A stretch of 64,000 nt of DNA, taken from the NCBI GenBank assembly GCA_004322215.1, contig SCSM01000039.1, positions 160,744-224,743 on the forward strand. The letters run 5' to 3'. The stretch comes from Bacteroidota bacterium. GTDB taxonomy: Bacteria > Bacteroidota > Ignavibacteria > Kapaibacteriales > UBA2268. Below, in pieces: positions 3,329 to 46,003 of the stretch. Every line of letters begins with the position of its first letter. Position 1 is the stretch's first letter. The position numbers were made by a program, and so were the translations under genes. Under the pieces are notes generated by a model that saw only the letters and a list, made by a program, of their open reading frames with translations, ran no database searches and was not told the origin of the DNA.

Positions 3329-5374
3329 ATGAAATATCTATACTTCTTTCTTTGTTCGATTGTTTTTTTATTTACTATTCCTTGTAATCTGTTTTCTCAA
3401 TTGACAAACCGCTGGGAGATAGCAGATTCATCCGGTATTTATTATTACAATTATTATTATAATACGGGTGGAAATTTGACAGGAATTGATGAAAATGATA
3501 TTGTTGTCATTGGGGGTTCTTATTGGCCTATTGATTATAAAAATAATCGTTATATTATTAAAAGGTATACTGAAAGAGGCAATAAAAAAGAGATTATCTA
3601 TAATGATACAGTAAATGTATGCCAGAGATTTCATTCAATGTCACACCCCGCAAAAAATTTCATAGTGGTAGTAGGTGATTCAAATGTTTATTTAGGCAAA
3701 ATTGATAAAGGAGAACGTTATAAATCATTTAGTTTGATTATGAGAACAAATGATGGAGGTAAAACCTGGGAAAGAAGAAATATAGATTCAAATAAAAGTT
3801 TCAGATATATATCGATGTGCGACAGTTTAAATGGAATTATTCTCCAAACTGACCTCGATAACCAATTCAACCTAAAAGATGAATTTTATGACAGTTTATT
3901 GATTACAAATTATGGTTGGATTACTGCTTATAAAATACCTGTACCTAATGGAGCTGGTTTTGTATTCTATTGCTGGTGCTTAGCCCCTCAAAAGTATTAC
4001 TTGCTTTGTCACAGTAACTTGGATGATACTGAATTCATTTATAGCACAACCGATGGAGGTGTGACATGGAAGCAATCAGCCCATTTCGAAGAAAATATTC
4101 ATATTGATGATGTTAAATTTATAAACGATAAAATAATATTTGCTGTTGGGAACCGACAGGTTGGTAAGGGTTATATACACGAGCCATCTATTTACAAAAG
4201 TTATGATGGTGGAGATAGCTGGCTTGAATGTAAAAATGTATTTAGAGAAAATGAACATTTATATTATTTATATAGCATTGATTTTTGCGACAGCTTAAAT
4301 GGCTTAGCTGTGGGTTGGGAGGGTAAAATTTTAAGAACAAGTGATGGCGGTGATACATGGGAGAGGGAAAATGCACCTTATGAGTTTCCACTGGCAACAG
4401 GTTACAGTACGCTGAGGTCAGTTTTTTATCCTAAAAAAGATTTTGCTTATGTTCTCTGGAGTAGAAATTACACAATGAAATTTAATAATAATAAAATACT
4501 TTCCAAACCCACGTTTTACGGAATTTATAACTCAGGGCATCTTCCTTTAAATGATATAAATTTATCATGGACTTCTGTTACTGGTGCTGATAGATACTGG
4601 TTAAAGGTTGACAGCATTCAAAAGGGCGGCTCAACCGCTGACTTTGATTTAGAAAATCCTTTAATTGATACAGTACTTTCGGATACTAATATAGTTATAA
4701 AGAATCTTGATTATGACAGATTTTATAATACTTGGGTAAAAGCAATAAATGATTCGATGGAAAGCGATTGGAGTGATGCCAATGGAGGATTTGCAACTAT
4801 TTCTACAGAAAATGAATTATATAAACCGAATTTAATTTATCCGGCTTATGCTTCAAGAGTTGAAAATACAAATGTAACTTTACGTTGGAATAAAGTGCTT
4901 ACTGCTGAGAGATACTATATCATTATTAATAATGATGATTACAGTTATTCGGTCAATGAATTAATAACAGATACAACCTTCACAATCACAGATTTAGCCC
5001 CATCGTCATTTTATTATGTTTCATTGAAAAGTGCCAGGGGAATTCAAACATCAGGTGAGTATTGGTCTTATTTCAGGACGAGAGATGTGCTTGGAGTTGA
5101 TGACGAAGTAATTAAATGGAATGATAATGTATTTAATATTTATCCGAATCCTTTTTCTAATAATATAAATTTAGAAATTGAAGGTAACGATAGGTACGAA
5201 ACAATCTTTATTAATGATATTTTAGGAAGAGTAGTTTATACGACAAAGACCGAATTACTTGAAACCGGTAAAACTTTCAATTTGACACTTGCAACAGAAC
5301 CGTTGCCGCAAGGTGTATATTTTGTAAGCGTAAAAGGAATGGAGGAAGCGAGAGTAGTCGTGAAAATAGAGTGA
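3329..5374 (+). CDS. Secreted YCF48-repeat / fibronectin-type protein with T9SS sorting domain (copy 1)
   Basis: Likely a surface or secreted protein exported by Sec and then the type IX system. It has a signal peptide (residues 1-24, ending LFSQ) and a beta-propeller with repeated xTxDGGxTW motifs (RTNDGGKTWERR, STTDGGVTWKQ, KSYDGGDSWLE, RTSDGGDTWERE) over about residues 100-340. Two fibronectin type III-like domains follow at about 395-585 (for example VTLRWNKVLTAERYYI). The C-terminal sorting domain runs from about 605 (IYPNPFSNNINLEI to GVYFVSVKG). The gene directly downstream is a full-length paralogue in the same order, a tandem duplication. The ligand or substrate is unknown; the propeller repeats do not imply a photosynthetic role here. 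Confidence 0.85.
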   Translation: MKYLYFFLCSIVFLFTIPCNLFSQLTNRWEIADSSGIYYYNYYYNTGGNLTGIDENDIVVIGGSYWPIDYKNNRYIIKRYTERGNKKEIIYNDTVNVCQRFHSMSHPAKNFIVVVGDSNVYLGKIDKGERYKSFSLIMRTNDGGKTWERRNIDSNKSFRYISMCDSLNGIILQTDLDNQFNLKDEFYDSLLITNYGWITAYKIPVPNGAGFVFYCWCLAPQKYYLLCHSNLDDTEFIYSTTDGGVTWKQSAHFEENIHIDDVKFINDKIIFAVGNRQVGKGYIHEPSIYKSYDGGDSWLECKNVFRENEHLYYLYSIDFCDSLNGLAVGWEGKILRTSDGGDTWERENAPYEFPLATGYSTLRSVFYPKKDFAYVLWSRNYTMKFNNNKILSKPTFYGIYNSGHLPLNDINLSWTSVTGADRYWLKVDSIQKGGSTADFDLENPLIDTVLSDTNIVIKNLDYDRFYNTWVKAINDSMESDWSDANGGFATISTENELYKPNLIYPAYASRVENTNVTLRWNKVLTAERYYIIINNDDYSYSVNELITDTTFTITDLAPSSFYYVSLKSARGIQTSGEYWSYFRTRDVLGVDDEVIKWNDNVFNIYPNPFSNNINLEIEGNDRYETIFINDILGRVVYTTKTELLETGKTFNLTLATEPLPQGVYFVSVKGMEEARVVVKIE

Positions 5375-5437: not shown

Positions 5438-7507
5438 ATGAAAAATCTTTTCTTCATTTTTTGCTTGTTATTTTTATTATTATCATTAAATAGCATTTTA
5501 TTTTCTCAATTGACTAACCGGTGGGAATTTGAAGATACATCTAAATTACAATATTCCGGTTATTCCGGTTTTTCTAATTTTTATTATCATAAAACCGGTA
5601 TTATGGCAGGTATTGACGAGAATGATTTTGTTGTTGTTGGTGGTGATTATAATATGGTATATTTTAGGAAAAATCTCTATGTAATTAAAAGGTACACTGA
5701 CAGTGGCAATAACATTGATATAATTTATAATGATACTGTAAATGTTGCACAGAGAATACACTCAGTTTCTCATCCTGTAAAAAATGTAATTGTAGCTGTA
5801 GGAGATACTAATAATTATTTGGGAATTTGGGGTTCAACGGAATATTATAAATCATTCGGCATGATTTTGCTTACAACAGATGCCGGTGCAACATGGGAAA
5901 GGAAGACTATTGATTCTAATAAGACTTTTAGATGTGTATCAATGTGTGATAGTTTAAATGGAATTATTTTGCAATCCGACTTAGACAACTATTTTAATCC
6001 AAAAGATGAATTATATGACAGCTTATTAATTACCTCCTACGGATGGAAAACTATAAATAAAATACCTTTACCCGAAGATGCAGGATTTGTTTTTTATTGC
6101 TGGTGTCTTACTCCTCAAAAATACTACATCCATTGTAGGAGCAAATCAGATGGTACGGAATTTTTATATTTAACAACCGATGGTGGAATGTCATGGAATC
6201 AATCAACACATTTACCGCCTGGGATAATTATTGATGATATAAAATTTATATCTGATAAAAATATATTTGTGGCTGCTAATAGAGCCGTAGAAAGTTCTGC
6301 TTCTCCGTGGGAACCGGTTATTTATAAAAGTAGTAATGGTGGCGTTACCTGGCGAGAATGTAATAATGTTTTCAGAGAAATCAGAGAAGATGTGTTTCGA
6401 TTATACAGTATTGATTTTTGTGATAGTTTAAATGGTATTGCTGTCGGAGGAGAAGGTAAAATATTAAGAACAAGTGACGGAGGTGAAACCTGGGACAGGG
6501 AATATTCTCCATTTATATTCTCTAAACCGAAAAATGATAATACTCTCAAATCAGTTTTTTATCCACAAAAAGATTTTGCTTTCTCAAGTTGGAGCAGCGA
6601 TTATACAATGAAATGTATTAATAATAGAACACTTTCCAAACCAATATTCTATAAAATTTTTAATGCAGGGCATCAGCCATTGAACAATGTTAAAATATCA
6701 TGGACATATATTAAAGGTGCAGAAAGATACCGGTTAAAAGTAGATACTACTCAAAGCAGCGGCTTAACCGGCGGTTATGATTTCGATAATTCATTAATTG
6801 ATACTATAGTTATTGATACCATTTATATTATAAAGAGTTTGGATTCCCATACTGTTTATCACTCATGGGTAAAATCCATCAACGATTCGATGGAAAGTGA
6901 CTGGGGTGATGAAAACAGTGGATTTACTACCATTACTTCAGAAAATGATTTGTATTCTCCGAATTTAACTTATCCCTTTTATGCTTCAAGAGTAGATAAT
7001 ACCAAAGTTACTTTAAGGTGGAACAAAGTGTCTACAGCAGAAAGATACCATTTGCTTGTTACAAATGATTTTAATAACGACAATTATGCCGAATTACTTA
7101 CCGATACTACTTATACAATCAAGGACCTTGTGCCATCTGCATTTTATTATATTACATTAGAAAGTATAAGAGGAATTTTTACTTCGTATAAAAGTTGGTC
7201 TTATTTCAGGACAAGGGATGTGCTTGGAGTTGATGATGAAATTATTAATAGTAATTATAATGTATTGAATATTTATCCGAATCCTTTTTCTAATTATATT
7301 ACGATAGATATAGAAGGTAATAATAAATCTGAGACAATCATCATTTATGATAATTTCGGAAGAACAGTAAAAACAATATTGACTGATTTTCTTGGATCCT
7401 TTACAACATACAACTTTACACTTTCGGTTGAATCACTTCCCCCAGGTGTTTATTTTGTTCGTTTACTGGGTAAAGCTGGAGCGAAAGTTATGATTAAAAC
7501 TAATTGA
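5438..7507 (+). CDS. Secreted YCF48-repeat / fibronectin-type protein with T9SS sorting domain (copy 2)
   Basis: This 689-residue protein lines up with the upstream gene along its whole length. It shares the signal peptide ending LFSQLTNRWE and the GIDEND segment. The propeller motifs match (LTTDAGATWERK, LTTDGGMSWNQ, RTSDGGETWDRE), as do the fibronectin-like domains with VTLRWNKVSTAERYHLLV. The sorting domain starts at IYPNPFSNYITIDI and ends GVYFVRLLGK. The spacer between the copies is only 63 bases, so they may be co-transcribed. Differences are spread along the protein rather than clustered, so the duplication is not very recent. Function is unknown. Confidence 0.85.
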   Translation: MKNLFFIFCLLFLLLSLNSILFSQLTNRWEFEDTSKLQYSGYSGFSNFYYHKTGIMAGIDENDFVVVGGDYNMVYFRKNLYVIKRYTDSGNNIDIIYNDTVNVAQRIHSVSHPVKNVIVAVGDTNNYLGIWGSTEYYKSFGMILLTTDAGATWERKTIDSNKTFRCVSMCDSLNGIILQSDLDNYFNPKDELYDSLLITSYGWKTINKIPLPEDAGFVFYCWCLTPQKYYIHCRSKSDGTEFLYLTTDGGMSWNQSTHLPPGIIIDDIKFISDKNIFVAANRAVESSASPWEPVIYKSSNGGVTWRECNNVFREIREDVFRLYSIDFCDSLNGIAVGGEGKILRTSDGGETWDREYSPFIFSKPKNDNTLKSVFYPQKDFAFSSWSSDYTMKCINNRTLSKPIFYKIFNAGHQPLNNVKISWTYIKGAERYRLKVDTTQSSGLTGGYDFDNSLIDTIVIDTIYIIKSLDSHTVYHSWVKSINDSMESDWGDENSGFTTITSENDLYSPNLTYPFYASRVDNTKVTLRWNKVSTAERYHLLVTNDFNNDNYAELLTDTTYTIKDLVPSAFYYITLESIRGIFTSYKSWSYFRTRDVLGVDDEIINSNYNVLNIYPNPFSNYITIDIEGNNKSETIIIYDNFGRTVKTILTDFLGSFTTYNFTLSVESLPPGVYFVRLLGKAGAKVMIKTN

Positions 7508-7828: not shown

Positions 7829-9118
7829 ATGTTATATAAAAAGAAAAAATTATTTGAGTTTCTGAAAAAGTGGGTGATTCTACTTTTTGGAATATTTTTA
7901 ATTCAGCCCGTAATTGCTCAAAAGCTTTTCATACCAATGGACTTGTCCCAGACAGACCACCTTAAAGCTTACGGCATAGCTTACTGGATACTGAAACAAG
8001 GACAGCCAGTTGACTGGCTTCTGAACTACCGCGGCGGTTCGTTTATGGCTGATTATTCTGAGTTGTTTGCTTCAGAATGCAGGATTCGCGGAGTCAGCTT
8101 CGAGCAGCTTGACGGTGCTGAAGCAGCGAAAATTTATTCAGAAGTGCAAAGCGAAAATGTAAATGAGGATGTTGTAAAATTAGAAAAGCCACCGAGAATT
8201 GCAGTTTATGCTCCTCCCGGTTCTCAGCCCTGGGACGATGCAGTTCGGCTCGCACTCGATTATGCCGAAATCGAGCATGATATTATTTGGGACGAGGAAG
8301 TGCTTGGAGGAAAACTTGAAAAGTATGATTGGCTTCATTTGCATCATGAGGATTTCACCGGTCAGTATGGAAAGTTTTGGGCAAACTATAACAGCGCCCC
8401 CTGGTATATTGAACAGGTTGCTCTCAATGAAGGGATGGCTAAGAAGCTTGGCTTTTCCAAAGTATCAGAATTAAAAAAAGCTGTTGTAAGAAAAATAACG
8501 GAATTTGTTGCAAACGGGGGATTTCTTTTCGCAATGTGCAGTGCAACCGATACTTATGATATAGCCATAGCAGCAATGAATATTGACATCTGCGGACCTA
8601 TGTTCGATGGCGACCCGGCTGACCCGGATGCGAATAAAAAGCTCGATTTCACGAACACTTTTGCATTTGAGAATTTCAAGTTGATTATGGATCCGTACGT
8701 TTATGAATATTCAAACATCGATGTTACTGAAGAAGCATTGAACAATCCCGATTATGATTATTTTACATTGTTTGAATTCTCAGCAAAGTATGACCCGGTG
8801 CCGACTATGCTTACTCAAGACCATGTAAATGTAATTCATGGATTCATGGGACAGACAACTGCATTTCATAAACAGTTCATCAAAAAAAATGTAACCATAC
8901 TCGGCGAACGAGACGGTTCGGATGAAGTTAGATATATACACGGTAACGTCGGGAGAGGCACATTCACCTGGTACGGAGGGCATGACCCTGAGGATTACCG
9001 CCATTTTGTTTACGATAAGGAAACTGATTTACATTTATTTAAAAATTCGCCGGGATACCGACTTATACTTAATAATATATTATTCCCGGCAGCAAAAAAG
9101 AAAAAGCAAAAAACCTGA
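7829..9118 (+). CDS. Conserved exported protein, often labelled 'asparagine synthetase B' in FCB bacteria
   Basis: The 429 residues begin with an N-terminal hydrophobic segment (WVILLFGIFLIQPVIAQ) and then KLFIPMDLSQTDHLKAYGIA and WLLNYRGGSF. I recognise this as a family conserved in FCB-group genomes and frequently labelled asparagine synthetase B. I see no glutaminase Cys at the N-terminus and no PP-loop, so that label is not supported by sequence. Other conserved-looking stretches are RIAVYAPPGSQPWDDAVRLA, WLHLHHEDFTGQYGKF, GGFLFAMCSATDTYD and GHDPEDYRH. The middle resembles a class I glutamine-amidotransferase-like or ThuA-like alpha/beta fold. It lies upstream of other exported-protein genes. 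The biochemical role is unknown. Confidence 0.6.
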   Translation: MLYKKKKLFEFLKKWVILLFGIFLIQPVIAQKLFIPMDLSQTDHLKAYGIAYWILKQGQPVDWLLNYRGGSFMADYSELFASECRIRGVSFEQLDGAEAAKIYSEVQSENVNEDVVKLEKPPRIAVYAPPGSQPWDDAVRLALDYAEIEHDIIWDEEVLGGKLEKYDWLHLHHEDFTGQYGKFWANYNSAPWYIEQVALNEGMAKKLGFSKVSELKKAVVRKITEFVANGGFLFAMCSATDTYDIAIAAMNIDICGPMFDGDPADPDANKKLDFTNTFAFENFKLIMDPYVYEYSNIDVTEEALNNPDYDYFTLFEFSAKYDPVPTMLTQDHVNVIHGFMGQTTAFHKQFIKKNVTILGERDGSDEVRYIHGNVGRGTFTWYGGHDPEDYRHFVYDKETDLHLFKNSPGYRLILNNILFPAAKKKKQKT

Positions 9119-9209: not shown

Positions 9210-10040
9210 ATGCTCAGACAAAAAGCCGTTAAAATATTTATTGTTATTTTAGGATTTATTTCATTTTGTTATATTTCTTATTCACAAAGTTTTGTTAGTG
9301 TCCCGGACACAATAATTCCGAGAGGCGATGTATATAGCATAACTATTAGCGGTAAAATCGAGCATCCCGAAGTTAAAAGTGTAAGAATCAGGTTCCAATA
9401 TAATGCCAGGGTAATTAATATTAAGAATGCATCCGGTTCTGATAATTTCATAATGAAATGTAATACGGTGAAGCTCATTAATTCTGATTTAAATAATCTT
9501 GAGCAGGCAACAATTGATATATCTTGCGACAGCATTTCTTCGACATTAACAGGAGTATTTTGCATTCTCGATATAGAAGGATTAGCCGGACCTGATTCTA
9601 TAACAAAACTCAAGCCATTGGCTGTTTATGAAAATGAGGAACCTGACCTGCTGGCTTTATCTTATGATGGTGAAATCAAAGTGCCCGGGATACCTATTTA
9701 TCAAAGATTTCCTGAAAGTTTATCTCAGAATTTTCCTAATCCCTTTTCAGGATACACTATCTTTCCAATCAGTATAGAAAAATCAACAAAAGTTAATTTC
9801 AAAGTTTATTCCAATAACGGTTCCGAAGTATTCATTTCAAGTGAAAGCTGGAAAAATTCAGAGTTATATAAAATTACCGGTTCAATAGATATTAAAGTAA
9901 ACTGGTTTGAGGATATTCTTGAAAAAGGGAATTACATGTTTCATTTTATTCCCGATGCTGAACTTGCAAGCGGCTCTTATTTCATGGTAATGCAGACTGA
10001 CAATGGTATTTACAATATTAGATTTCTATATTTAAAGTAA
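9210..10040 (+). CDS. Exported protein with cohesin-like domain and T9SS-like C-terminus
   Basis: This 276-residue protein has a signal peptide (about residues 1-26, ending SYSQ). A beta-sandwich segment resembling cohesin-type domains follows (RGDVYSITISGKIEHPEVKS through SYDGEIKVPG, about residues 33-160). The C-terminus opens with SQNFPNPFSGYTIFPISI and ends ASGSYFMVMQTDNGIYNI, the pattern of a T9SS type A sorting domain, although a variable insert separates the halves. Its stop codon overlaps the next start by one base (TAATG), so the two are almost certainly translationally coupled. A similar cohesin-like segment and an IgGFc-binding domain occur in one polypeptide at 41741-46003, which suggests this protein works with its neighbour. 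Confidence 0.7.
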   Translation: MLRQKAVKIFIVILGFISFCYISYSQSFVSVPDTIIPRGDVYSITISGKIEHPEVKSVRIRFQYNARVINIKNASGSDNFIMKCNTVKLINSDLNNLEQATIDISCDSISSTLTGVFCILDIEGLAGPDSITKLKPLAVYENEEPDLLALSYDGEIKVPGIPIYQRFPESLSQNFPNPFSGYTIFPISIEKSTKVNFKVYSNNGSEVFISSESWKNSELYKITGSIDIKVNWFEDILEKGNYMFHFIPDAELASGSYFMVMQTDNGIYNIRFLYLK

Positions 10041-12412
10041 TGAATATACCGGTGAAATATTGTTTGTTGTTAGCAGTAATTATATTGTTTATTTATAATT
10101 CACTAAATGCTCAAAATGACAGCATTGCCCCAAAGGATAGGCGACAGATATTAAATATAAAAAATTCAGAAGGCACTGAATTTTGGCTTTGCTTCATGCA
10201 AAATTTTGAAGAAAGCGATAAGACCTCTAACTCAAATGTCCTTTTACTCGAGTTGTTTATTACAGGGAGTTATGACACAAAAGTCAGGATTGAAATTGAC
10301 GGATTGAATTTCCGTAAAGACACATTTCTTATCGGCGGAGCTGTCAATAATATAAAAATTAATCCAAAAGCAATGTCAACGGGCAAAGAACAAGTCGAAC
10401 GTCTTGCTATACACATTACATCGGAGCTGCCGATTTCTGTATATGGACTGAATAGAAGATTCCAGACAACTGATACATATTTGGGATTGCCTGTAAGTGT
10501 GCTTGGTACAGAATACCGTGCAATGTGCTATAATGTAGCAAACAAGCTAATGTCTGAATTTGAGATTATAGCTACTGAAGACAGTACAGAAGTTACAATA
10601 GTCCCGACAGCAAATACATACAAAGCAGTAAAAGGAGAACAGAATAAAGTTTATCTGAAAAAGGGAGACGTTTACCAGGTATTTGCGCGTTATGAGCCAT
10701 TGGGACGTTGCGACTTAACCGGAACTTATATCAAATCTAATAAGAAAATTGCAGTATTCAGCGGTCATCAGTGCGCCTATGTGCCACAACATATTATTGC
10801 CTGCAACCATCTTGTTGAGCAATTACCATCGGTACCATCATGGGGGAAACATTTTTATATAGGCAAACTGGAATCACGTTCCAAGTATTCGTACAGGGTT
10901 CTTGCAAATGAGCCGAGAACAAAAGTTTTCGAGGACAGCAAACTTGTGAAAACACTCAACGGTGGAGAATATTACGAAGGCACAGCCAGCAAGGAAATAC
11001 AGATTACTGCTGATAAGCCGGTGCTTGTTGCACAATATTCGCAGGGATTTATGAATGGTGATTCAATCGGCGACCCGATGATGCTATTCATCAGTCCTAC
11101 TCAACAGTTCCTGAATCAGTACCGATTTGCCACACCTGTAAACGGTTCATGGAAGCATTATGTTAATGTCGTTGTACCAACTAAAGCAATAAGTACGATG
11201 CAACTTGACGGTGAAAGGATTGATTCTGCAAAATTTCATCCACTTGGATTAAGCCGGTATTCGATTGCATACATACAGGTTCCCTTCGGAAGCCACACAA
11301 TAGAAGGGGAACTGCCCTTCGGAATGTCATCTTATGGTTTCGGATATGGCAATGATGCTTATGATGCCTATGGAACAATGGGAGGTCAATCATTTTGGGA
11401 ATATGAACCGGCACGCGATACTCTTGTTCCGAGATGTGAAGAAAATAAGAATAATCCGCAGAGTAGTGTAATCTTTCGTGATGACAGGGAAGACGATACC
11501 GGTTTGAAGAGAATTAAAGTTCTGCAATCTAACGGAGTAGATGTAACTGTTCCTTCATTTGAAGAAGGTCTTCTACAGTTACCTGTCGAAATTAAATTGA
11601 AAAATAACGGAACTTTCGGAAGGGTGTTATTCCAGGTTGAGGATGTTGCATTCAATTCTGCTATTTATACTGTATGTTGCCGCTATGATTCAAAGCTTGG
11701 TAAAAATGTACTTAGTATATCCGAAGGGGAGAATGAGGATTGCGTCCCTGACCCGGGATGGCAGATTGGAGCTTTCGGGAAATATACTGCTACTTTTCAT
11801 TCGGGAAATTTCTCATATACCGATGGGATTATCTCTGATAATAAATTCAGCGATGCTTTTGGATTCAGTGGTTATGGCGGATTGATTATTGAAAGACAGG
11901 TGAAAAACGAACTTGTTGTCACGTTAAGATTATCATTTGAAAATTACAATGGTAATTTGACCGCTCCGGGAAAACCGGGTAATAGAATGGATTCAGTTAC
12001 TCATAAGTTGGAACCATACCAGGAAGAATTGGGCTTAACTCTCGACGGATTATTTATGCACATTTCTCCTGCCGGGGAATGGTTCTTTTCTTCCCATATA
12101 TATTTGCTTGGAGGATTAAATTTTGCAATAAATCTGTCCGATGCAGTGACTATAAAAAGGAAAATTTTAATACCAAATGATGCGATATTTCCAAATGGTT
12201 CAGATGAAATATCAATTAAAGGCAATTTGACTACACTGAAAAGTTTTCGTCTGGGAATGTTTACCGGTTTGGGGGTAACATATCCGATTGATTACAGGTT
12301 CTCCGTTTTCGGAGAATCTTATTACACATTTCATTTCGGAAGTTTGATTGATGGCGGTAACTGGGGATTGCAGCAGCTTTCATTTCAGCTTGGTGTAAAA
12401 ATCACATTATAA
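10040..12412 (+). CDS. IgGFc-binding-domain protein with C-terminal outer-membrane-barrel-like domain
   Basis: Residues 1-25 are a signal peptide (ending LNAQ). From about residue 45 to 460 lies an IgGFc-binding-type N-terminal domain: GTEFWLCFMQNF, KVRIEIDG, LPISVYGLN, LGTEYRAMCYN, KIAVFSGHQCAYVPQ and LPSVPSWGKHFYIGKL. From about residue 575 the chain becomes amphipathic and aromatic (SGYGGLIIERQVKNELVVTL, WFFSSHIYLLGGLNFAI, SFRLGMFTGLGVTYPI) and ends in strands up to FQLGVKITL. This is typical of small outer-membrane beta-barrels of the OmpA-like type. No T9SS sorting domain is present, so the barrel probably holds it in the outer membrane. Despite the family name, antibody binding is not implied. 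It overlaps the upstream gene and is followed 10 bases later by ccmB. Confidence 0.8.
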   Translation: MNIPVKYCLLLAVIILFIYNSLNAQNDSIAPKDRRQILNIKNSEGTEFWLCFMQNFEESDKTSNSNVLLLELFITGSYDTKVRIEIDGLNFRKDTFLIGGAVNNIKINPKAMSTGKEQVERLAIHITSELPISVYGLNRRFQTTDTYLGLPVSVLGTEYRAMCYNVANKLMSEFEIIATEDSTEVTIVPTANTYKAVKGEQNKVYLKKGDVYQVFARYEPLGRCDLTGTYIKSNKKIAVFSGHQCAYVPQHIIACNHLVEQLPSVPSWGKHFYIGKLESRSKYSYRVLANEPRTKVFEDSKLVKTLNGGEYYEGTASKEIQITADKPVLVAQYSQGFMNGDSIGDPMMLFISPTQQFLNQYRFATPVNGSWKHYVNVVVPTKAISTMQLDGERIDSAKFHPLGLSRYSIAYIQVPFGSHTIEGELPFGMSSYGFGYGNDAYDAYGTMGGQSFWEYEPARDTLVPRCEENKNNPQSSVIFRDDREDDTGLKRIKVLQSNGVDVTVPSFEEGLLQLPVEIKLKNNGTFGRVLFQVEDVAFNSAIYTVCCRYDSKLGKNVLSISEGENEDCVPDPGWQIGAFGKYTATFHSGNFSYTDGIISDNKFSDAFGFSGYGGLIIERQVKNELVVTLRLSFENYNGNLTAPGKPGNRMDSVTHKLEPYQEELGLTLDGLFMHISPAGEWFFSSHIYLLGGLNFAINLSDAVTIKRKILIPNDAIFPNGSDEISIKGNLTTLKSFRLGMFTGLGVTYPIDYRFSVFGESYYTFHFGSLIDGGNWGLQQLSFQLGVKITL

Positions 12413-12422
12413 GAGTAAATTG

Positions 12423-13100
12423 ATGGCGACTGGAAGTTTGAAGAGAATTTATGCTGTATTTAACAAAGACACAAAAAGTGAACTCAGAACACGCTATTCT
12501 ATTTCTGCAATTTTCCTTTTTATACTAACTACAATAACAATGATTGCGATTTCTGCTGCAAATGAGAAATTGAATCCGGCTTTATCTGCAGGAATTCTAT
12601 GGGTAATTTTGTTTTTCTCGGCAATGACAGGTATTTCAAAAGCATTTGTCAGCGAAGAAGAAAGAGGGACGGGTTTGCTTCTTAAAATTTATACTTCGAA
12701 TGAAGCAGTTTACTTCGGAAAATTGTTATTCAACATTTTACTTTGTTTTTTACTGAATATCATCTCTGCATTATTTTTTCTGTTAATTAATAGCGAACTG
12801 GTTGTGAAAGAGCCGTTAATATTTATTTATATGCTCATACTCGGAAGTTTGGGTCTTGCTTCAGGCACAACCCTCATTTCTGCAATAATTGCCCGTGCAA
12901 ATGTTAAGGGAGCATTATTTCCGGTGCTATCTTTCCCTATTCTTCTACCTTTAATTGTTGCCGGTATCGGTTTGACAAAACTATCATTCGAAGGTGGCTC
13001 ATTCTCTGATGCCCAGAGTGATTTCCTGCTTATGCTTGCTTATAGCGGTGTTTTGATTCCTGCTTCTTACATACTTTTCGACCAGATATGGGAAGAATAA
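12423..13100 (+). CDS. ccmB: CcmB-like heme exporter permease
   Basis: CcmB is the membrane subunit of the CcmAB(C) ABC complex used in cytochrome c maturation. The protein has about 225 residues and six predicted membrane segments, the usual length. It carries ELRTRYSISAIFLF near the N-terminus, the FVSEEERGTGLLLKIY loop and ALFPVLSFPILLPLIVAG, all typical of CcmB. An in-frame TTG at 12420 also precedes it; I chose the ATG at 12423. It starts 10 bases after the barrel protein, suggesting co-transcription. No ccmA ATPase, ccmC or other maturation gene is near, so its partners must be elsewhere. Confidence 0.85.
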   Translation: MATGSLKRIYAVFNKDTKSELRTRYSISAIFLFILTTITMIAISAANEKLNPALSAGILWVILFFSAMTGISKAFVSEEERGTGLLLKIYTSNEAVYFGKLLFNILLCFLLNIISALFFLLINSELVVKEPLIFIYMLILGSLGLASGTTLISAIIARANVKGALFPVLSFPILLPLIVAGIGLTKLSFEGGSFSDAQSDFLLMLAYSGVLIPASYILFDQIWEE

Positions 13101-13239: not shown

Positions 13240-13671
13240 ATGAAAAAGCTATTAACAATCGGTATTTCTTTACTTCTTATAATTGGATTAACAAGTATTA
13301 TAATCGTCAATGCACAGGATAATAAGATAGTAAAGAAGGAAACAGTTCAAAATCAGGGACAAGGTAGAAACTTTGTTGATAAGGACAAAGATGGTATCTG
13401 CGATAATAACAAATCAGGTTTTGGAAAAGGTATGGGCAGGTCAGGAATGAACTGTGGCAGAAATTTTATTGATGTTAACAAAGATGGAATTTGTGATAAC
13501 TATCCGCAAGGTAAAGGTATAAGAGGAGAGGGAGCAGGACCGAATTACATTGATAAAAACAAAGACGGAATCTGCGACAATCGTCCTAATGGAATTGGCA
13601 AAGGTAAAGGCATGGGCAGAAGAGACGGAAATTGCGATGGTACACGAAAAGGCTGGAGAGGAAGCAGGTAA
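13240..13671 (+). CDS. Small exported protein with three DKDGICDN calcium-loop-like repeats
   Basis: The 143-residue protein starts with a signal peptide (about residues 1-26, ending VNAQ), preceded by GGAG six to seven bases before the ATG. The mature part has three copies of NFVDKDKDGICDN, NFIDVNKDGICDN and NYIDKNKDGICDN, separated by Gly/Lys/Arg-rich spacers with GKGMGR. The DxDxDGxCD loops resemble calcium-binding loops of thrombospondin type 3 or dockerin-like sequences. Each repeat carries one Cys, giving possible disulfide or metal-binding use. Its role is unknown; it may be a periplasmic metal-binding protein. A strong terminator follows directly. Confidence 0.75.
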   Translation: MKKLLTIGISLLLIIGLTSIIIVNAQDNKIVKKETVQNQGQGRNFVDKDKDGICDNNKSGFGKGMGRSGMNCGRNFIDVNKDGICDNYPQGKGIRGEGAGPNYIDKNKDGICDNRPNGIGKGKGMGRRDGNCDGTRKGWRGSR

Positions 13672-41740: not shown

Positions 41741-44700
41741 TTACTTCGCTATTACCATTTTTTCAATTTTCTTGTATGGTCCAGAGCTCATTTCTAGCCA
41801 GTAAACACCTGACGGCAAATCAAGAGTGTTAATTCCAAGCTTATATACACCCGGCTTTAGTACATCCGAAACAGGTACAGAGATTAATTCAGATGTTGGA
41901 CCGTATATCTTTACTTCTGTCATTGCCTCTAATCCTATCGAAAATTCCAGTTCAGCAGTGCTTGTTACAGGATTAGGTTTCACACTCGAAAATGAATAAT
42001 TGGTTGTTCCTAATGCCACTTTCCTTAAATCATATACACATGTCGGTTGTAAATGTATACTCCCTGTGTCTGAGAAAATGCCAACACACCTTGTTTCAGG
42101 CAATACTATCCAATGAAATATTTCAGAGCTGTCATTCTGAGTTTTCGGTAAATATGTTGTAATGTATAATCGCAGGATTTCTCCTCCGTTTGGCAGATTT
42201 AATATATCATTCGGACTTACCATGCTCAATGAAATAGTTCCGGCTACATCATTGATATTAAGATTTTGTATCCCAAATTTTCCTTCAAGAGCTGTTCCAA
42301 CATGCACATCCTGGGCATACACCTTTAGAAAATCACCATCATATTTTACTGTTATATCGAGCTTTTTGATTTGTGCTAATGAGATATCTAATCCCGGGTC
42401 CAAATTAATGCTGATGTATGTCGTATCTCCGATTTTATTGGTTTGCTCTTTGGGTGAAATTTTTGAATACCTCCCATAAAATTCTGCATTGCCTGTTACA
42501 GGAATTCCGCTTGTAACAATAGGATTTGCAATTGAATTATTATATGCAACAATGTTTGCCTTATGCGTTGTTACTCTCGGTATTGGAAGAGTAACAGGTA
42601 TAGGTGCATACTTGATTAAAACCACCTGGTACGAACCTGCATCTATAATAAATCCGAGAGAATCTGACGGATTTACGAAGCTGAAAACTGAAGCACTCTC
42701 TGCATCGAGCGGTTGTATTTTAAGTGAATCAACATTTATGTTACTGCTCCCGACATTATAAATTCTGCATGGTATTGTAACTGTATCATATACACATATT
42801 ATTTCGGTTCCGGTCTCTATATTCAATCCTTGCATTATTCCGGTTCCTACCCAATATGAAACCTTTTCGGTATCGGCATCGCTTTTTGTTTGTATCTGTC
42901 CGTTCGCTTGCTGAAGCTTATTAGCAACAAAATAACCGTCAAAATCCAGGTGCTCTCCCATTTGTAGCGTCAATGGGAAACTGATGGAAGATTTATCGTA
43001 CTTGAAACCTTCTGTCCCGAAAGTTGCCATATTTTCTGAAATTACATTTACATTAGGAAGTACAACCAAATCATCAAGCTTTAAGGAATCTCCGTATTCC
43101 CAGTCTGATGCTGATAAGTTAGTAAACCTGACAGGTCTGATATTAGGATGAAGTGTGTCGTCAATTATTGTTGCACCGAAATCTACATCTGATGTCGTTA
43201 CACGCGGAACAACACCTATTCCCCTCAATATGGTTTGTGTGCTTGTCGTATCACCCGAATTATTATCATATTCAATAATTAATTCGTGGGGACCTGTTAC
43301 AACCGGATGAAATTTAACAGGTACTATTATAAAGCTTGAATCAGGAATCAATCTATTCGTAAGTGAATCCCTTTCAAATTCAAATGCACTCCCGTTTATA
43401 TTGCTAATGATTTTAATGTCTCTGACAATCACGTTTGTAGAACCGTTATTTTCAAGCTTGATTACCTCATAATTATTATCCGGAGGATATGGTCCTGTCG
43501 GAAAAGTTGGTCTGTCAATCCTTCTTCTACCCCAATCATAAGAATTAGCAACTAATCCCGGTTTTATCCCTCTGCCGAATAAATCTCCGACACTGTCGGG
43601 ATTATTTGCCTTTTCGGTATTACTGATGAAAAACATCGAGTCAGTGTACCGCTGCTCGGCTGTTGGCAGGAAAGTAACTTCATAAGTAAACACATCACCG
43701 GGTTTTATAATTAGCGGTGTTGTATCTGTTATCGCAATAATATCCGGCATGAATACAATTGGTTGCCTTGGTCCTGTGTATCCTGTTATAACTAAATCAA
43801 TGTTGCCGTAATTTCTTATTTCAATTTGTCCGTTTGCAGTGTGATTGACTACTACATCTCCGAAATCATGATATGTTACATTTATTACTGCACCTCCGAC
43901 TGCTGCCTTAACCAATGATTCAAAATTGAATACACACGTATCTCCGACACCAACAGAATCCTGAAACTCACCGTTCACCGTTGCTGTAAATTTCACTTTT
44001 ATCATTACAGAATCTAATGGCTGTAAAAGATATGGCAAGTTAATACCGTACACTTCAAATCCCTTATCATTATATTTAAGTGCAAGTGTATCGAGTAATA
44101 CAGCTGATTGAGAAGATTCATTTATTATCCATGCATCTTTCTCAACTACTGCTCCAACCGGTAAAGTGCCAAAATCCAGTTCAGGTCTGATTGTCAATTT
44201 TACTGCGTAATAATTTATGGTAATTATTGTATCGTTCCCTCTTCTGTCAGTGAATAATATGACAGCCCTTCCATCTTTATTTTTATCAATCACCCAAGCT
44301 TTCCATTCGGTCGCAGGGTCTTCTCCCGGAATGAAATCCTTATATGTCATTTTATAATTAAAGCTCTCTTCTGCTAAAAGAATGATTTTGGATAAATTTG
44401 ACCTGTCATTATTGCGCGGCATATCCTCTACAGTTGCACCATTGATTGATCCGTCACATTCAAGTATCCAATGTGGGTCGGGTGGCAACGTATCCGGTTT
44501 TTCAAGGTCACCTAACGCCACGCTGGTAGGAAATCCGTATGAATCAAAATTTGAAAATCCGTAAGCATAAGCTGCGAATGGGTCATTTGCCCTGATTTTA
44601 TATACTCCGTCTCCGGGTAATGAAATTGTTTTACTATAATATTTTTTCCCATTTACAAGTTTATTAAACTGCTGTCCGGGATTTGGATCAATCGCATTGA

Positions 44701-46003
44701 TTTTTTTCCAGACAAAAGCTCCCCCCTGTACAGATGCAAATTCCAGGTCATCAGGGATTGTTCCGTCATTAGCTGCCCTGTAAACAAGATTTATATAATT
44801 GCTTGTAAAACCGACCCCTCCTTTTATACCTGGTGTATTAAATACAATTTCCCTTTGATATTGTTCGTATGGAGTCAGTACTAACTGAAATGGGTCGCTA
44901 AATACAGCATCGTCATTCTGTCCGGGATTATATTGTGTCACACTTATCGGCTTATCACCCGAAATGACAACAGGTCTTGGTTCCCCGACGTCAGCTCTCA
45001 TTCTCAACCAACCTGTGTTTTCCATTCCTCCGCCTGTTTGAAGTGTTGTCAGCTGAATTCCGTCCCGAAAGATTTTTGTTCCGGATTCTTTCGGAAAAAT
45101 TTTAATAAATGAATTGTTTAACCTGTCAACAATTCTTGTAACATGATATTCTGTTCCCCAAGTGTTAGTAGGCAATTCCATTTCGATAATAAAATCGCAT
45201 GCTTCCGTGTTTTCCGGAATGTAGGCGCAGAAATTTCCCGATACGACACTTACCGGCTTATTTGCCCTGAACCTGCTTCCTGACAAATCACTGTGCTGCC
45301 CAATACTTCCGAAAATCAATACATCTCCTTTGGAAAGGTCCCACTTTGTCGTCTCGCCGGGATTCTGCCCACCGGCTGTTCTTGTTGCAGCAGTACCGCC
45401 GAGGTTAAACCTGACCGTTGTCCGGTCGTATGGAGCCACAACTGCCGTATAGCTTGTCAACCATTGATTTTCATTATCTGCCGGGTCCGCCCATGATGCG
45501 ACTATGTAGTCCTTGCCTAATGATGATAACGGAACAGCTAAATATCCGTCACTTGTGTATTCATACCTTGTTACACCATACACAATTATTGGATTGTCTG
45601 CATAAACATGAATTCCGGCTCCCTCGTATATTTGTTCCGGTTCCGGCTGCTGTGTGTCTGTTTTCCGGTATGGTTGTCCCAATGCCGGTGATAGGGTGAA
45701 TTCGATTATGTCATTGGGTATTGTCGTTTGTTTCCTGATATAACCTTTACCTGGTATTTCAACAGTTACTACTGTTTCTAATCCTGAAGAAATGTATAGC
45801 TTCAGGTCATTCTTTGCTCCTGCGGTCTCCCAGCATGGTACGAATGTAAGCCAGAACTCGGTCCCAACATTATTTGAACCGAGTAATTCAGGTAAATCTT
45901 TCTTCAGCTTATTTAAATCAAACTCTTTAGCTGATGTTTGGTATGAGCTTGCAATCAGGATGCAAATGCTTACCAGCAAAATTTTGTAAACTAACTTTTT
46001 CAT
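41741..46003 (-). CDS. Large T9SS cargo: IgGFc-binding domain, ASH repeats, cohesin-like domain and sorting domain
   Basis: This 1420-residue exported protein has a signal peptide (residues 1-25). Its IgGFc-binding-type N-terminal domain spans about 40-500 (VGTEFWLTFVP, VVTVEIPGKGYIRK, NPIIVYGVTRYEYTSDGYL, PVSVVSGNFCAYIPENTEAC, LPTNTWGTEYHVTRI). A series of ASH/choice-of-anchor D type beta domains occupies about 590-1150, with repeats such as LDFGTLPVGAVVEK, HDFGDVVVNHTA, YDWGRRRI and VDFGATIIDDT. A cohesin-like domain follows at about 1190-1320. The C-terminal sorting domain is SSVKPNPVTSTAELEFSI to SGVYWLEMSSGP. It is probably a surface-attached multidomain adhesin. Single-gene unit on the minus strand with its own terminator. 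Confidence 0.85.
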   Translation of the reverse strand: MKKLVYKILLVSICILIASSYQTSAKEFDLNKLKKDLPELLGSNNVGTEFWLTFVPCWETAGAKNDLKLYISSGLETVVTVEIPGKGYIRKQTTIPNDIIEFTLSPALGQPYRKTDTQQPEPEQIYEGAGIHVYADNPIIVYGVTRYEYTSDGYLAVPLSSLGKDYIVASWADPADNENQWLTSYTAVVAPYDRTTVRFNLGGTAATRTAGGQNPGETTKWDLSKGDVLIFGSIGQHSDLSGSRFRANKPVSVVSGNFCAYIPENTEACDFIIEMELPTNTWGTEYHVTRIVDRLNNSFIKIFPKESGTKIFRDGIQLTTLQTGGGMENTGWLRMRADVGEPRPVVISGDKPISVTQYNPGQNDDAVFSDPFQLVLTPYEQYQREIVFNTPGIKGGVGFTSNYINLVYRAANDGTIPDDLEFASVQGGAFVWKKINAIDPNPGQQFNKLVNGKKYYSKTISLPGDGVYKIRANDPFAAYAYGFSNFDSYGFPTSVALGDLEKPDTLPPDPHWILECDGSINGATVEDMPRNNDRSNLSKIILLAEESFNYKMTYKDFIPGEDPATEWKAWVIDKNKDGRAVILFTDRRGNDTIITINYYAVKLTIRPELDFGTLPVGAVVEKDAWIINESSQSAVLLDTLALKYNDKGFEVYGINLPYLLQPLDSVMIKVKFTATVNGEFQDSVGVGDTCVFNFESLVKAAVGGAVINVTYHDFGDVVVNHTANGQIEIRNYGNIDLVITGYTGPRQPIVFMPDIIAITDTTPLIIKPGDVFTYEVTFLPTAEQRYTDSMFFISNTEKANNPDSVGDLFGRGIKPGLVANSYDWGRRRIDRPTFPTGPYPPDNNYEVIKLENNGSTNVIVRDIKIISNINGSAFEFERDSLTNRLIPDSSFIIVPVKFHPVVTGPHELIIEYDNNSGDTTSTQTILRGIGVVPRVTTSDVDFGATIIDDTLHPNIRPVRFTNLSASDWEYGDSLKLDDLVVLPNVNVISENMATFGTEGFKYDKSSISFPLTLQMGEHLDFDGYFVANKLQQANGQIQTKSDADTEKVSYWVGTGIMQGLNIETGTEIICVYDTVTIPCRIYNVGSSNINVDSLKIQPLDAESASVFSFVNPSDSLGFIIDAGSYQVVLIKYAPIPVTLPIPRVTTHKANIVAYNNSIANPIVTSGIPVTGNAEFYGRYSKISPKEQTNKIGDTTYISINLDPGLDISLAQIKKLDITVKYDGDFLKVYAQDVHVGTALEGKFGIQNLNINDVAGTISLSMVSPNDILNLPNGGEILRLYITTYLPKTQNDSSEIFHWIVLPETRCVGIFSDTGSIHLQPTCVYDLRKVALGTTNYSFSSVKPNPVTSTAELEFSIGLEAMTEVKIYGPTSELISVPVSDVLKPGVYKLGINTLDLPSGVYWLEMSSGPYKKIEKMVIAK

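Follow-up and report, generated by a model that had tools for sequence, protein, structure and literature searches.

A T9SS-tailed cohesin-fold protein and a C-terminal barrel protein encoded as an overlapping gene pair in Kapaibacteriales: a possible substrate with its own outer-membrane barrel

Introduction

What relationship links two proteins whose genes share a single base, when one carries a T9SS sorting tail and the other ends in an outer-membrane barrel? The question arises from a 64,000-nt window (the whole stretch of DNA analysed here) of a Kapaibacteriales genome, for which the original prediction had proposed a barrel-anchored receptor with a secreted partner docking onto it. T9SS substrates follow two routes in the model species: PorV collects those of type A and PorP/SprF barrels those of type B (PMC12618676). 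For type B substrates of F. johnsoniae, e.g. SprB, secretion needs the PorP/SprF barrel encoded directly downstream (PMC12618676), and the complexes of PG1035 with PorP and of SprB with SprF are thought to anchor the substrate (PMC9143113). We assign a probability of roughly one half to the reading that the pair in the window consists of a T9SS substrate and a cognate outer-membrane barrel that recognises its sorting tail, with the IgGFc and Ig-like domains of the barrel protein lying in the periplasm. The more general statement, that the small and the large protein act together, one secreted by the T9SS and the other anchored by its barrel, is very probably correct.

Results

A secreted cohesin-fold protein with a T9SS type A tail

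The pair and its closest neighbours comprise the following features.

7829..9118, + strand: 429-aa protein with a signal-peptide-like start, upstream of the pair
9210..10040, + strand: small secreted protein of 276 aa with signal peptide, cohesin-fold domain and T9SS type A sorting tail
9282..9692, + strand: cohesin-fold domain, residues 25-161 of the small protein (AF2 model, cohesin fold matches, PDB profile match)
9711..10037, + strand: C-terminal sorting domain of T9SS type A containing an insertion, residues 168-276 (TIGR04183)
10038..10042, + strand: stop/start overlap TAATG of the small and large genes, one base shared
10040..12412, + strand: 790-aa outer-membrane protein with signal peptide, IgGFc_binding domain, Ig-like domain and C-terminal barrel
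10172..11404, + strand: IgGFc_binding region, residues 45-455 (PF17517 covers 145-433), predicted periplasmic
11417..11695, + strand: Ig-like linker domain, residues 460-552 (predicted strands; conserved DDR and DxAxN motifs)
11735..12409, + strand: eight-stranded OmpA/OmpW-type beta-barrel, residues 566-790 (predicted model, fold comparison)
12420..13100, + strand: CcmB-family membrane protein, 7 bp 3' of the 790-aa gene (PF03379, 4.8e-18)

Both open reading frames and their TAATG overlap are present as originally described. For the small protein, the AF2 model (mean pLDDT 84.8) revealed a cohesin fold at residues 25-161 (Z 12.8, 2.8 Å, 127 residues aligned), for which the top matches were the cohesins 1g1k, 2vn5 and others (Z 12.8, 2.7-3.1 Å), with the best non-cohesin entries scoring below them at Z of about 9-10. 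Cohesins also ranked first in a PDB search with the small-protein profile (E 0.016). The Pfam cohesin family PF00963 did not match the small protein of the window, and among 20 orthologues it matched a single one, at E 0.066. At the C-terminus, TIGR04183 passed its cut-off of 23 with 26.9 bits; PF18962 scored 14.8, below its cut-off of 27, and the type B tail model TIGR04131 matched neither this protein nor, above cut-off, any other in the genome. The fold of the predicted model and the TIGR04183 score thus bear out the earlier description of a cohesin-like, T9SS-tailed protein. It resembles the cellulosome cohesins (PF00963) in the fold of residues 25-161 but differs from them as a single domain inside a T9SS protein, devoid of a Pfam cohesin match, in a genome where the dockerin model PF00404 finds one match only (25.6 bits, on a different contig).

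The large protein has an IgGFc domain that should be periplasmic

PF17517 (IgGFc_binding) matched the 790-aa protein with an E-value of 2.2e-73 and 247.6 bits (gathering cut-off 25.6). The predicted model (mean pLDDT 75.3) consists of a signal helix, a beta-rich region at 45-450, an Ig-like domain at 465-550 and eight long strands between 574 and 790, and residues 566-790 gave the folds of OmpA, OmpW, NspA and OprF at Z of about 16. The last ~200 residues, whose barrel had been singled out as decisive for the original prediction, are therefore predicted to form an eight-stranded barrel, and the proposed joining of an IgGFc-type domain to an OmpA-like C-terminal barrel holds. Neither the peptidoglycan-binding domain PF00691 in the Pfam scan nor any NCBIfam model at E up to 1, hence no TIGR03519 (PorP/SprF), was matched in this protein. 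The 790-aa protein has the full-length domain match of the PF17517 family, yet other members in the genome match it over the IgGFc part only, and the one at 41741-46003 of the window ends in a weak T9SS tail; the barrel fusion and the predicted periplasmic location set the 790-aa protein apart.

In known even-stranded barrels, termini and tight turns lie on the periplasmic side. The model places tight turns at 623-624, 683-686 and 750-753, on the side of the termini, and longer or better-conserved loops (591-605, 644-656, 712-736 and 769-773) on the opposite side. With the IgGFc domain lying N-terminal of all eight barrel strands and the tight turns facing the termini, the domain should be located in the periplasm and not at the surface, to judge from the predicted structure. 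Loops L1 and L4 of the outer side are the best-conserved barrel segments (0.66 and 0.69 versus 0.53 overall), which suggests a binding surface at these loops. Mean pairwise identity among orthologues amounts to 63% for the IgGFc domain, the most conserved part of the pair, and to 38% for the barrel; the small protein follows with 30-32% in its two parts.

The original prediction had further drawn a hint of joint action from a second protein of the window, in which an IgGFc-type and a cohesin-like domain would occur in a single chain.

41741..46003, - strand: 1420-aa protein with IgGFc domain, Ig repeats of the choice-of-anchor D/HYDIN type, a putative cohesin-like segment (42017-42490) and weak T9SS tail

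Its IgGFc domain is clear (8.9e-54), its T9SS tail stays under the cut-off (22.4 bits), and a cohesin-like nature of the segment 42017-42490 is plausible, with a cohesin as best match of the PDB profile search (E 0.022). Direct comparison of this segment with the small-protein cohesin by hhalign yielded marginal probabilities of 1-13%, which leaves the hint weak. Although each segment alone ranks cohesins first, we dropped this fusion as proof of an interaction.

The pair is conserved across relatives

Orthologue searches covered 60 relatives from genus to order, those named being mostly metagenome-assembled genomes of Ignavibacteria and Candidatus Kapaibacterium. A large-protein match was found in 58 of the 60, either over the full length or with only contig ends or insertions interrupting it, and the genomes of the order, with few exceptions, have one full-length orthologue each. 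The small gene lies directly upstream in 53 of the 58 relatives holding the large gene (a hand tally over the search results), so that the gene pair proved to be conserved as the prediction implied. The contig ends at the pair in two of the remaining relatives (G013 and G028), and the pair is split in three, all of family f7 (G041, G049 and G056), with the small-protein match elsewhere in the genome. Among 32 loci examined in full, clustering recovered the pair in 31; the 429-aa family is present in 15, as the immediate upstream neighbour in most of those.

The ccmB gene follows the pair in 23 of these 32 loci, and at a distance of 7 bp in the window, which would fit an operon for a periplasmic system linked to CcmB, in heme export or cytochrome c maturation. 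However, ccmB is not the next gene in the other 9 loci, and a T9SS tail and a barrel have no known role in such a system, making this a very remote explanation. Distance matrices of the small and large proteins correlated no better with each other than with CcmB; since this operon neighbour correlates equally, the correlation was dropped as evidence for an interaction.

In two loci the IgGFc-barrel gene is present twice in tandem, the two copies being separated by CcmB in one (L087:9887-15646) and by a CcmB-like ORF, recognised by eye, in the other (L118:1365-6923). On a metagenome contig, the IgGFc-barrel gene is split into two overlapping ORFs (L105:8004-10366), through either a frameshift or a sequencing error.

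Partners outside the order retain the tail but not the cohesin domain

Outside the order, full-length large proteins are also found in two families of the class, f16 and f18. The partner in f18, less regularly in f16, and in genome G030 of the family to which the window genome belongs, is a protein of ~130-175 aa with a signal peptide and a T9SS tail but without a cohesin domain. TIGR04183 scored three of these tail-only partners at 26.0, 26.3 and 21.6 bits, the first two passing the cut-off of 23. No tail-only partner was found adjoining the large gene in several f16 genomes. As the f18 and G030 partners lack the cohesin domain, it is the tail, and not the cohesin, that represents the constant part of the partner. 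In two f18 genomes this arrangement includes a third gene: between the tail-only protein and the IgGFc-barrel protein comes an IgGFc protein with a T9SS-like tail of its own at the C-terminus (L260:1720-6621 and L261:2190-7183).

These partners bear on the originally predicted arrangement, in which an IgGFc receptor held by the barrel would face the outside, serving as docking site for the cohesin of its secreted partner. The cohesin fold, confirmed on the predicted model, argues for such docking, as does a partial distance correlation of 0.47 between cohesin and IgGFc given CcmB, the highest between-protein value tested. On the other hand, cohesin-less partners outside the order mean that cohesin docking cannot be the general mechanism, the tight turns of the C-terminal barrel assign the N-terminal domain to the periplasm, and the fusion hint is marginal. 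We regard a surface IgGFc receptor for the cohesin as improbable, whereas the other half of the prediction, a T9SS-secreted protein and a barrel-anchored protein acting together, very probably stands.

The near-universal single full-length orthologue in the order might instead indicate that the two proteins are a component of the T9SS machine specific to this lineage, taking the position of PorP/PorE/PG1035, and not a receptor with its cargo. PorP-family matches in the class, which are weak and limited to genomes without the full-length protein, provide a hint in that direction. None of them exceeded the cut-off, though, and the PorP-family search of the own genome gave no matches but had silent controls as well, so that an absence of PorP is a hint and not established; moreover, the partner differs strongly between f18 and the order. 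A machine part accordingly receives a low probability.

Related barrels repeatedly follow T9SS-tailed genes

The OmpA family combines an N-terminal eight-stranded barrel with a peptidoglycan-binding domain. Searching the own genome with the barrel profile uncovered about a dozen further members, mostly N-terminal barrels of 640-740-aa proteins, and PF00691 was found at the C-terminus of all three paralogues scanned with Pfam. These paralogues and the 790-aa protein share the OmpA barrel fold, but the latter has its barrel at the C-terminus and the IgGFc domain in place of PF00691.

We then compared the genes upstream of barrel paralogues, within 300 bp, with those upstream of other genes of the same loci. 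A same-strand T9SS-tailed gene was located just upstream in 29 of 54 barrel cases as opposed to 7 of 216 controls (Fisher p=9e-18), the 54 cases consisting of 12 from the own genome and 42 from relatives (n=40 loci) and including orthologues among relatives, so that they are not independent. The own genome alone accounted for 7 of 12. The median gap between the T9SS-tailed gene and the barrel gene was 4 bp, and T9SS-tailed genes downstream of the barrel were limited to 2 of 53 cases. The profile that detected the neighbouring tails had been trained on tails of this very dataset, so that independent support comes from scoring some of the partners with the curated TIGR04183 model. Near their C-terminus, 11 of the 29 paired tails carry a TP[TSN]-type motif, which none of the 33 unlinked tails has (p=7e-5). 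Roughly half of the barrel paralogues lack a T9SS-tailed neighbour, which counts against a substrate-barrel relationship.

Two loci illustrate such layouts. A 753-aa T9SS-tailed protein containing PKD-like domains overlaps a 668-aa barrel-OmpA protein by 4 bp, in the layout of the window pair (L134:2476-6740), and a VWA-OmpA protein, a 248-aa cohesin-like T9SS protein and a 320-aa barrel protein are encoded consecutively and almost touching (L140:2020-5183).

Alternatively, the small protein may be ordinary type A cargo that PorV shuttles and PorU attaches to LPS, sharing an operon with the barrel for expression only. Both the TIGR04183 score above cut-off and the sortase PorU encoded in the genome (836 bits) are consistent with it; PorU fits the substrate-barrel reading as well. 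Still, ordinary cargo leaves unexplained why barrels repeatedly lie 3', and not 5', of T9SS-tailed genes and why the partner can be reduced to the tail alone, and we consider this account unlikely.

Discussion

A model of a substrate with its cognate barrel

The substrate-barrel reading builds on the domain make-up, the predicted folds, the conservation of the pair and the repeated pairing of barrels with T9SS-tailed proteins. According to it, the small protein would cross the inner membrane via Sec and, by means of its C-terminal sorting tail, the outer membrane via the T9SS. The product of the barrel gene directly 3' would recognise this tail and receive or hold the small protein at the cell surface; we infer that the two proteins bind physically, with the tail as the contact, and that the pair serves in surface anchoring. 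The cohesin-fold domain of the protein so held would point outward. The IgGFc and Ig-like domains of the barrel protein would remain periplasmic, replacing the peptidoglycan-binding OmpA domain of the paralogues, and might anchor the complex or report on it. The model thereby predicts a periplasmic role for the IgGFc_binding domain, whose family is of uncertain function in bacteria.

So conceived, the window pair looks like an unrelated counterpart of the SprB/SprF pairs. As in SprB/SprF and PG1035/PorP (PMC9143113, PMC12618676), a T9SS-tailed substrate would be matched to an outer-membrane barrel, and the arrangement with SprB/SprF is alike in that the barrel gene lies directly 3' of the substrate gene and several such pairs occur per genome. 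Unlike the PorP/SprF barrels, which are 14-stranded and of FadL type, the window barrel is predicted to be eight-stranded and of OmpA/OmpW type; their substrates carry type B tails (TIGR04131) whereas the window tail is of type A (TIGR04183), and the window barrel chain has a predicted periplasmic domain of its own. Against a type A-tailed protein as substrate of a cognate barrel stands the fact that the type A tails known so far are directed to PorV (PMC12618676).

More tentatively, these barrels may constitute a second receptor class for T9SS substrates, one without relation to PorV or PorP/SprF: OmpA-type eight-stranded barrels, each encoded directly 3' of its own type A-tailed substrate and often with a peptidoglycan anchor in the chain, the version with a periplasmic IgGFc domain being nearly universal in Kapaibacteriales and sister lineages. 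If this barrel family does pair with type A-tailed substrates, substrate-specific receptors would have arisen more than once. Such receptors could also explain the surface retention of proteins in deep-branching Bacteroidota without detectable PorP. The open-access literature held no apparent description of T9SS-substrate/barrel pairs of this kind in Ignavibacteria, and no open-access papers on IgGFc together with T9SS were found.

Other genes around the pair

The 429-aa protein upstream (7829..9118) had no match in the Pfam or NCBIfam scans. Further upstream, 3329-5374 and 5438-7507 encode neighbouring, similar ~685-aa proteins with T9SS-type tails that have the appearance of a tandem duplication; BNR and fn3 domains and a T9SS tail were matched in the second. 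Two genes past the 790-aa gene, a 143-aa protein (13240-13671), with a homologue in two other full loci, contains three DxDKDGICDN-like calcium-loop repeats that resemble dockerin or thrombospondin type 3 loops.
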